Of a stretch of 64,000 nt of DNA, positions 1-33,405 are shown in pieces. Numbering within the stretch: position 1 is the first letter of the stretch; each line of letters begins with the position of its first letter. Position numbers and translations under genes: made by a program. The notes under the pieces were generated by a model. It ran no database searches. It saw only the letters and a program-made list of their open reading frames with translations, and was not told where the DNA came from. The DNA is from Gammaproteobacteria bacterium (GTDB lineage: Bacteria; Pseudomonadota; Gammaproteobacteria; Tenderiales; Tenderiaceae), in the NCBI GenBank assembly GCA_016200485.1, contig JACQEP010000004.1:1-64000 (forward strand). The letters run 5' to 3'.

Positions 1-165
1 ACTTGCCAGATCAGGCAGGTTTGCAATGAAATTATTTTAGAAAAACAGGAAACCGAAAATGAAGACAACGGTTTGTTTTGAAAAAAATCCACCCAAAGCT
101 GAAACAGGTTTTCAGAATGGGGTTTTTCTACAGCGTCGTTATGCACCAAAGGAAGCTGCGCTCTC

Positions 166-1851
166 ATGTCAATAGCCGTGGTAAAGAACCAGATTAATGC
201 CTTCCTCGCGACCGAGAAGCCAGAAGTTATCGCCATAAAGGGTGCGTGGGGTGTTGGAAAAACATACAGTTGGAAGCAATTCCTCTTTGCTGCCAAACTG
301 TCAAAAGAGATCGCACTGAAGCGTTATTCCTACGTTTCGTTATTTGGCATCAATTCTCTTGACGCACTCAAATATGCAATATTTGAGAACGTCATTAGCC
401 GAGACATTATTGGTACTGACGCCAGCATCGAGACCTTCAAAAGCAATACCACAACTCTTCTTGAAAGCATGGGCCGGAAATCCCTAGGGATATTTAGGGG
501 GGCTTCGCTTCTAAAAGGTTTTACACCAGCCATAGAGTCGCTTTCATTTCTCTCGCTGAACAAATCGGTCATCTGCATCGACGACCTGGAGCGCAGAGGA
601 ACTGGGCTATCCATAAAGGATGTGCTTGGCCTTGTTTCTCAGTTGAAAGAACAAAAGGAATGCAAAATTGTTCTGCTACTGAATGACAAGGAAGACGGGT
701 TGGAGGATTACCAGAAATACCGCGAAAAAGTCATAGATATCGAGCTGGCCTTTGCGCCTACGGCAAGAGAGTGTTCACAAATCGCTTTCGATCCTAACTG
801 TGACACGACGCGCGGCCTGCCGGAGCTGACAGAAAAGTTAAACATCAGAAACATCCGCGTCCTAAAGAAAATTGAAAGATTAGTAACGCTCGCTCAACCT
901 CTTCTTCGGGGGTACGAGCCCGAGATATCCCACCAAGTTGCGCATTCAATAGTCTTGTTTTCGTGGTGCTATTACTGCAACAGCGAAGGCGCGCCACATC
1001 TAGATTTCGTCACTAATCTAGGTTTCAGTTCTTGGGGAATAGGCGATGAAGATGATGCCAGCAACGACGACGAGAAAAAGAAGTGGAAGACCGATATTGG
1101 CACGTATGGCTATACGCAGACTGATGAACTTGATTTGATCTTGGCAGGGGCGGTCCGTTCTGGATATTTTGTTGAAAAATCCTTTCAGGAGCGGGCGGCC
1201 AAAAAAAATGATGAATTGCTGGCGGCGAAAGCAGAGGGCTCGTTCAGTAAAACATGGGAGCTGTATCACAACAGCTTCGACGACAATCAGCATGAGTTGG
1301 TCGGCAAGTTGTACGAGAGCTTCCTTAAGAACGCAAAAAACATCACGCCAATAAACCTGAACGGGACCGTTAGACTTTTTAGGGAATTGGGAGAGTCAGA
1401 AAAGGCATCGATAATTATTGATCACTACATATCCACACGAAAGGAGGAACAAGAACTATTCAATATGGCAGAGAATAACTTTTTTGGTGATATTCGAGAT
1501 CAGGAAATTGTCGACAAATTTAACAACCATTTCCAGAAATCTGTGGCCGTCGAAGATGCACGTATGGTGCTTGCGAGGATTTCGGGGAAGGATGGATGGA
1601 ATCAGAAGGACGAAATTGTTCTGGCGAATACCACTGAGGATGAGTACTACGACATATTCAAATCCGAAAAGGGAGATCATCTGTCGAAATACATCCGTAC
1701 ATGCCTGCGATTCGGGCAGTTCGGAAATGCAAGCGAACAACAGAAACAAATCGCCAGCAGAGCGATTGGCGCTCTAAGGCGAATCGCTGACGAAAGCGAG
1801 TTGAATCGGCGCAGAGTGAAAAAGTTCGGTATTGAAGTTGAGAATGCATAA
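166..1851 (+). CDS. KAP-like P-loop NTPase, orphan
   Basis: A 561-residue protein with a clear Walker A motif GAWGVGKT at residues 26-33 and a Walker B-like stretch ICIDDLER near residue 138, followed by a hydrophobic strand IVLLLND. This arrangement is typical of KAP-family and related STAND-like P-loop NTPases, which often lie in accessory or defence regions. No transmembrane segment is obvious, unlike classic KAP proteins. The C-terminal half is charged and not recognised. An AAGGAAG stretch precedes the ATG. The gene looks more AT-rich than the housekeeping genes to its right. Its stop codon TAA uses the last base of the adjacent group II intron remnant, so the natural C-terminus may be lost. 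Function is unknown; an NTPase activity is inferred from motifs only. Confidence 0.75.
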   Translation: MSIAVVKNQINAFLATEKPEVIAIKGAWGVGKTYSWKQFLFAAKLSKEIALKRYSYVSLFGINSLDALKYAIFENVISRDIIGTDASIETFKSNTTTLLESMGRKSLGIFRGASLLKGFTPAIESLSFLSLNKSVICIDDLERRGTGLSIKDVLGLVSQLKEQKECKIVLLLNDKEDGLEDYQKYREKVIDIELAFAPTARECSQIAFDPNCDTTRGLPELTEKLNIRNIRVLKKIERLVTLAQPLLRGYEPEISHQVAHSIVLFSWCYYCNSEGAPHLDFVTNLGFSSWGIGDEDDASNDDEKKKWKTDIGTYGYTQTDELDLILAGAVRSGYFVEKSFQERAAKKNDELLAAKAEGSFSKTWELYHNSFDDNQHELVGKLYESFLKNAKNITPINLNGTVRLFRELGESEKASIIIDHYISTRKEEQELFNMAENNFFGDIRDQEIVDKFNNHFQKSVAVEDARMVLARISGKDGWNQKDEIVLANTTEDEYYDIFKSEKGDHLSKYIRTCLRFGQFGNASEQQKQIASRAIGALRRIADESELNRRRVKKFGIEVENA

Positions 1852-1921
1852 TCGGGTAAGGGCGAGTTTCTCTCTCGCCCTCCCCACACCACCTAGCATG
1901 CGGGTCCGCACTAGGCGGTTG
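1851..1921 (-). ncRNA. Group II intron domains V and VI (remnant)
   Basis: On the minus strand, ACCGCCTAG (1911-1919) pairs with CTAGGTGGT (1888-1896) to give a nine-pair lower helix. A two-base bulge TG (1897-1898) and an upper helix TGCG/CGCA with loop GACC follow. That is the domain V architecture, with a CGC triad candidate in the lower helix. Next, GGGCGAG (1874-1880, minus) pairs with CTCGCCC (1860-1866), as in domain VI. An A near base 1857 is a candidate branch point about seven bases from the end. Folding was done by eye. Confidence 0.65.
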
Positions 1922-2042
1922 AAGCAGGATAATGAAAACGGACCCACTGATCTTTGATCGACACCAAGCCCTGTGCGGCCAACCAAGCGTTCGACATCGC
2001 CATTTGCGTTATCGGTGTGCGCGACATGGCGTACGGTCCTTC
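1911..2042 (-). pseudogene. C-terminal fragment of group II intron maturase
   Basis: The minus frame ends with SRTPITQMAMSNAWLAAQG followed by LVSIKDQWVRFHYPASTA and a TAG stop. This is the pattern of the extreme C-terminus of group II intron-encoded reverse transcriptases, where an [A/S]RTP..Q..M.NAWL..QGL.S.K..WV..HYPA tail is common. Only about 43 codons remain; the RT palm, X domain and start are absent. The frame stays open on into truD in the wrong frame, which is coincidental. Confidence 0.65.
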
Positions 2043-2043
2043 C

Positions 2044-3051
2044 TTACCGACTCTGAACCACTTCCCCCACCACCGTAGTTGCATAAGCCCCGGCCGGGAG
2101 GCTAAAGCTGAGCTGAAGGCTGTTCTCATCCCATTGCCAGAGGAGTCCTTGGGGGCAAAGACGTAAAGGGCGGCGTTCCTGGTCCATCCCGGCCTCTTCA
2201 CAACCTTGGGTCCAGAGCGGTGGGCAGCTGGCGATGATTTCTTGTTCGAGGACGAGTGCCTGGCCGCGGGTGGGCAATTCGCCTTTGCCCCACAGCGAGC
2301 CGGTGGGATGAATGTCGTGTTCCGCCAGTCGCCGTTGAATGGTTTCGTCGATCTCATCGGCGATGAAAAAGCTGCGGCTGCCGTTGAGATTAAGCGCGTC
2401 ACCGGGTAGCGCTTGTTCCCAAGTGCCTTCACGGACGCGGCGATCAAGTACGGTGTTAAAGATGGCGGAGCGCAAGGTGGAGAGATAGATACCGCGCAAA
2501 TGACGATCTGGTACGCGCTGCTCACCGCGCACCATGGCTTCGGCATTGGCGAGATTGTCGTGGCCAAAACGTTGCTCGCCGAAGTAATTAGGCACACCGC
2601 GCGTGGCGACGAGTCTTAAACGTTCTTCAATCGCATCGCGATCGCCTTGCACATCGCGCAGGGTGATAATGAAACGATTGCCGCGCAGACCGCCACGGCG
2701 CAGCTTGCGGCGGCCGCGAGTGGCATTGAGTACGCGCCAGCCGTTTTCAGTCCATTGCTTGCATTCTTCTGGATCAACATTTTTGAGATGCAACGTGAAC
2801 CATTGGCGAGTGATCGCGTGGCGGTCCTTGAGTCCGGCGTAGCTGACATCATTTATCCGCACCTTGGCGACTTGTGCCAGGCGCTTGGCAAGTTGCTCGG
2901 TGTTGAGGCCGCTTTTTTCGATCCACAGCCAAATATGTTCGCCCTCGCCCTCTGGCTCGAAGCCTAACTCTTCTTCGACAATGAAGTCTTCGGGGGATTG
3001 ACGCATTACGCCAGTGGCGATGGGTTGGCCGTAAGCATAGGCAAGATTCAT
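2044..3051 (-). CDS. truD: tRNA pseudouridine(13) synthase TruD
   Basis: TruD isomerises uridine 13 of tRNA-Glu (and a few others) to pseudouridine. The 335-residue protein shows the family signature around VSYAGLKDRHAITRQWF, with the catalytic aspartate of GLKD near residue 76, and a typical C-terminal LPAGAYATTVV segment. Length is slightly below the E. coli enzyme (about 349). It is the last gene of a minus-strand run that begins with eno, downstream of ispF but separated from it by a palindromic repeat. Its stop codon directly abuts the group II intron remnant, yet the C-terminus looks complete. Confidence 0.95.
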   Translation of the reverse strand: MNLAYAYGQPIATGVMRQSPEDFIVEEELGFEPEGEGEHIWLWIEKSGLNTEQLAKRLAQVAKVRINDVSYAGLKDRHAITRQWFTLHLKNVDPEECKQWTENGWRVLNATRGRRKLRRGGLRGNRFIITLRDVQGDRDAIEERLRLVATRGVPNYFGEQRFGHDNLANAEAMVRGEQRVPDRHLRGIYLSTLRSAIFNTVLDRRVREGTWEQALPGDALNLNGSRSFFIADEIDETIQRRLAEHDIHPTGSLWGKGELPTRGQALVLEQEIIASCPPLWTQGCEEAGMDQERRPLRLCPQGLLWQWDENSLQLSFSLPAGAYATTVVGEVVQSR

Positions 3052-33211: not shown

Positions 33212-33405
33212 GATTTACTCCTAACTGTTGGGTTATGGCCTCCACGCACCCCATTCGCCACCCCACTACTGAATACGTGGGGCACCCGGGCGAGATGTGC
33301 CGGTGCGTGTGTGGATTTTTTACCGGCTACGCCGGCGACCTAAGGACTGCCAGAAAATTCCGGCAGTTGGCGCGCTTTATATCATATAAAGGCCCGTTTG
33401 CTCAA
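33212..33405 (-). promoter_or_regulatory. rpsB promoter and structured leader
   Basis: On the minus strand a -35 TTGAGC (33400-33405), an 18-base spacer and a -10 TATAAA (33376-33381) are followed by GCGCGCC, a GC-rich discriminator typical of stringently controlled ribosomal promoters. Transcription from about 33369 would give a leader near 158 bases. In it, CCCCAC and GTGGGG flank a ten-base loop (about 33256-33280), a candidate S2 autoregulatory hairpin. The site is a prediction from sequence only. Confidence 0.65.

Follow-up and report, generated by a model that had tools for sequence, protein, structure and literature searches.

What lies between the gene for a KAP-type P-loop NTPase and truD, and what does it tell about how an accessory gene came to stand beside a core one? 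We addressed this question in the window, a stretch of 64,000 nucleotides from a gammaproteobacterial genome. The initial annotation, made by reading the letters, described a decapitated group II intron wedged between the two genes and named two outcomes that would refute it, the lack of a domain V hit in a covariance-model search and a 43-codon tail unlike maturases. Neither was the case. The Rfam covariance model RF00029 (Intron_gpII) matches positions 1920-1851 of the minus strand over the whole model (1-77) with 42.4 bits, which exceeds its gathering score of 40 (E 5.7e-5, computed over the whole 64 kb), and the tail is clearly maturase-like, resembling a group II maturase ORF elsewhere in the same genome (contig C7).

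The remnant occupies positions 1851-2041 of the minus strand, about 190 bases, and corresponds to the 3'-terminal tenth of a group II intron; the element had been placed at 1851-2043, and only its 5' limit needs to be moved, to about 2041. Read on the minus strand, an open tail of 43 codons is followed by TAG, domain V, domain VI and CCCGAT. The tail (1911..2041, with TAG at 1913-1911) is the C-terminus of a reverse transcriptase/maturase, identified by similarity to the copies on contigs C5 and C7. It has neither a start codon nor RT domains, so that only the C-terminal ~43 codons of an intron-type maturase are present here, the matching C7 ORF being a TIGR04416 protein. A GUGYG-like 5' end and domains I-IV are absent from the remnant, and homology to C5 and C7 stops at 2041. 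The 191 nt amount to 10% of an annotated relative of 1926 nt on a Pseudomonas putida plasmid (L138 2413-4338), in agreement with the earlier estimate that the 5' 90 percent is missing. Judged by its sequence, the remnant is an intron fragment and not an intact intron. It is unable to splice, to move or to encode a working maturase, and no function is indicated for it.

Domain V (1888..1919, minus strand) carries a CGC triad with a G.U wobble and a two-base bulge; a CGC triad has been recorded for some group II introns (PMC4424553). The predicted fold gives ten lower and three upper pairs around the bulge, where nine and four had been counted; the bulge is the same and the two counts are alternative registers of one helix. 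Domain VI (1853..1886, minus strand) contains a bulged branch-point A at 1857, and the intron closes with CCCGAT (1851..1856, minus strand), a 3' end of the AY type. Domain VI and CCCGAT, already noticed at first reading, are borne out by the fold, by covariation and by identical ends in seven of seven aligned introns, including the P. putida copy, in which both boundaries are readable. In these seven IIC-attC introns, the window copy among them, each of the 26 pairs in domains V and VI is preserved, nine of them being changed on both sides. The minus strand of the remnant folds into two hairpins that are very stable (z -4.9; 0 of 200 shuffles equally stable). This stability, together with a domain V as in C5 and C7, would suit hairpins retained between truD and the KAP gene to end convergent transcription or to stabilise RNA, but the remnant has no T-run and drew no terminator call, its recent origin explains its intactness, and it is kept in none of 55 related genomes. 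We regard such retention as extremely improbable.

Three more copies were found in the genome, at C5:246-438 (95% identity), C7:1269-1461 (87%) and C16:292483-292627 (82%). The initial annotation had suggested a search for intact copies that would show the true boundaries, and none of the three is intact as assembled: the C5 copy is cut by the contig end, the C7 copy is damaged and the C16 copy is badly decayed. The C7 ORF of 416 aa is a group II RT/maturase (TIGR04416, 401 bits), whose maturase domain lacks 13 residues that C5 and the P. putida relative have; just upstream of its ATG this ORF borders on a repeat that is also present at six further contig ends. The maturase tail of the window copy differs from C5 at 1 of 131 nt and from C7 at 17 of 131 nt. 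Domain V is the same in the window copy, C5 and C7. Domain VI is identical in C5 and C7, and the window copy departs from it at 8 of 30 bases, six of these differences forming three double compensatory changes. Because its tail is nearly identical to that of C5 whereas its domain VI is unlike that of C5 and C7, the window copy is probably, as read from these alignments, a mosaic descended from functional introns. In a search of 56 genomes with the remnant, all matches in other genomes were short and fell in domains V and VI.

We also considered an artefact of assembly. The longest exact run shared by the remnant and C5 is 130 bp, below the 141-base overlap at which the assembly breaks, and a misjoin of two intron copies is therefore unlikely from the sequences; an assembly swap with C5, which we had suspected, is disfavoured on the same ground. 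A second RF00029 match in the genome (C4:327508-327584, minus strand, L108; 63.4 bits) is of a different type, with an AGC triad, and its intron domains adjoin an apparent transposase C-terminus. It was rejected as parent of the remnant, since no RT ORF accompanies it and its domain V is of the AGC type.

The remnant belongs to the group IIC-attC introns. The C5 and C7 introns are placed in the R'' core of an attC, in each case that of a first cassette, which starts directly behind attI-like DNA. At the 3' junction the C7 intron continues into TAGACC and the C5 intron into TAGCCG; the opposite strand, including the last base of the intron, reads GGTCTAA and CGGCTAA, respectively, which are attC R'' cores. 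The C7 intron adjoins an integron integrase gene (TIGR02249, 494 bits), and the attI-like DNA beside it, TCTACTTTAA|GTTAGACC, is also found beside the C5 intron. A second attI-like region (C5:1391-1520, L107) is similar to that next to intI in C7, and no intI follows it. Annotated plasmid relatives belong to class 1 integrons, run antisense to an aadA1, aadA11 or GES cassette and share the final CCCGAT, which abuts the ends of aadA and GES cassettes. Maturase identity to these relatives is 50-51%, and the best-covered plasmid maturase matches, taken pairwise, are mostly integron-borne introns at this same level. The P. putida copy, TTGT|GTACG...CCCGAT|TAGAC, has the ends expected from the TTGT/T rule that PMC7923331 gives for the insertion of group IIC-attC introns. 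In the window, TATGC forms the 3' exon at the stop codon of the KAP gene, so placed as in C5, C7 and the class 1 integron relatives; the 3' junction lies in the bottom strand of an attC R'' core, antisense to the cassette, and the TTGT half of the site is deleted. The initial annotation was thus too general: it overlooked the group IIC-attC subclass, the placement in an attC core and a genomic integron with two sister copies.

Compared with the IIC-attC introns of class 1 integrons (ltrA next to aadA1, P. putida pVIM_Pse-KSS14, E. coli pB39_C), the remnant shares the CCCGAT end, the architecture of domains V and VI, the attC R'' placement, the orientation against the cassette and a related maturase, but its length is 10% of a full one, and it lacks an RT domain, a 5' exon and an attC remainder. 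The group IIC introns that target terminators have the ribozyme class IIC in common with it; their target is a terminator hairpin, whereas here it is an attC core. UHB.F1, from a soda-lake cassette array, is likewise a 5'-truncated IIC-attC intron antisense to neighbouring cassettes (PMC7923331); it lies within the array, whereas the cut end of the window remnant abuts the housekeeping gene truD.

The KAP-type NTPase gene (166..1851, plus strand, 561 aa) is a probable integron cassette. Its product gives a weak match to KAP_NTPase and a clearer one to the candidate anti-phage model PDC-S49, and its full-length plasmid homologues include proteins annotated KAP P-loop. With TATGC as 3' exon, the KAP stop codon falls in GCATAA on the plus strand (1846..1851), apparently the remains of an attC R'' core (GCATAA|C expected) placed as in C5, C7 and aadA cassettes; the last A of both core and stop is supplied by the final base of the intron. 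GTTATGC (138..144, plus strand), the reverse complement of the right core GCATAAC, is the probable left boundary (G|TTATGC). Of its only two occurrences in the 64 kb, one lies 21 bases ahead of the KAP start codon ATG. Cassettes are bounded by a G|TTRRRY left core and an RYYYAAC right core, complementary to each other and close to the start and stop codons. GTTATGC and GCATAA are complementary and near the start and stop, arranged as in aadA, but show one deviation from RRR/YYY, and the right core is missing its final base. A complete attC hairpin is absent downstream of the KAP gene, where truD follows; it was presumably removed together with the 5' part of the intron. An intron in an attC-type core and a complementary GTTATGC before the ATG together suggest that the KAP gene is probably a cassette, at most a former one. 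Little is visible to the left of the gene because the window starts at a contig end.

On the other side of the remnant, truD (2044..3051, minus strand) is apparently complete (NF002153 equivalog, 441.7 bits, residues 3-333 of 335). Homology to the C5 and C7 introns begins 2-5 bases past its stop codon, so the element passes straight into the truD stop, as had been described; at this junction ~90% of the intron, from its 5' side, is gone, along with the 5' exon and the remaining attC sequence. Of eight family relatives with a truD match we examined two in detail, G003 and G004, and found no empty truD site and no intact ancestral arrangement; in both, truD is followed by unrelated genes. Among named relatives, even the nearest TruD proteins reach only about 52% identity. 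The usual neighbour of truD in other Gammaproteobacteria is surE. Whether it had been displaced was checked; in this genome surE is on C8 next to nuoN, which is uninformative.

The initial annotation took the remnant as the trace of a deletion by which accessory segment and core chromosome became neighbours, which is plausible, with no empty site found. Given the features of the intron class, the 3' end, the position in an attC core, the sister copies and the missing 5' part, all of which we observe, we hold it highly probable that a IIC-attC intron inserted at the attC of the KAP cassette and that a deletion then reached the flank of truD. The intron would have retrotransposed into the attC bottom strand at the end of the cassette, in the usual orientation opposite to it. 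A later deletion would have taken the 5' ~90% of the intron, the remaining attC and whatever followed, with its far end just beyond the truD stop codon; deletions extending into truD were probably selected against. The remnant would then be a fossil of the former cassette/attC junction, and deletion is the likeliest and simplest account of the missing intron and attC sequences.

The copy may instead never have been complete, if reverse transcription stopped early during retrohoming and the partial cDNA became attached to neighbouring DNA. In bacteria, group II introns are commonly truncated at the 5' end, and for the 5'-truncated introns of a cassette array the proposed cause is reverse transcription that was not completed (PMC7923331; PMC4424553). 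In the simple case, however, the rest of the attC bottom strand, ending in TTGT, should remain upstream; truD is there instead, so a deletion or rearrangement is needed even with a truncated insertion, and we consider this origin unlikely. Yet another route would be recombination between two introns, one in the KAP attC and one past the truD terminator, joining cassette and truD convergently before the 5' part decayed. Leon and Roy reportedly put forward such recombination between intron copies as a means of cassette formation, and the order truD > intron < cassette is the one that their model predicts. The mosaic remnant indicates that copies have probably recombined, and targeting of terminators by IIC introns is documented (PMC4424553). 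Neither a terminator hairpin nor an intron 5' part remains beside truD, however, where no terminator-like site was found, and we judge this route very unlikely.

The remnant is a dead representative of a well-known element and has little consequence for intron biology; it is also ordinary, since most introns in bacteria are truncated or inactivated (PMC4424553). It is useful as a marker, suggesting that the KAP NTPase gene, a candidate for phage defence, originated in an integron array and ended up attached to core chromosomal DNA together with a piece of an attC-targeting intron. A broader reading, that recombination between IIC-attC copies reshapes the genome and fuses cassettes to core genes (in this case a candidate defence gene to truD), with the remnant as a caught intermediate of cassette capture or release driven by introns, would be a long shot.

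The window opens with the end of a repeat of at least 138 bp (1..138, plus strand), which recurs at C16:301725-301862, C11:80093-80230 and C7:215982-216119, all contig ends. The repeat ends at GGTTTTTCTACAGCGTC, and a GTTA-type core comes next in four of four places (GTTATGC, GTTAGGC, GTTAGGC and GTTAGCG); one copy sits just after a flagellar-hook-like gene. It gave no plasmid match and no viral-contig match, and only short similar ends were seen, in the genomes of three relatives. An attC-like hairpin and the end of a site-specific insertion element are candidate readings. An IS1111-attC element was not confirmed: one IS110-type transposase is encoded at C24, and the repeat has no match there. 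The other repeat, which abuts the maturase ORF in C7, lies at both ends of C17, at ends of C10, C20, C25 and C1, and at the start of C7 (L124-L129, L110). It ends at ATCATACAAGG, abuts small hairpins at most sites (GCGGC...GCCGC, GGCGGGTTTGAAACCCGCC, GGATGCGG...CCACATCC) and looks like a hairpin-seeking insertion element. Elsewhere in the window, the Rfam t44 RNA model matches positions 33232-33331 of the minus strand with 63.1 bits.
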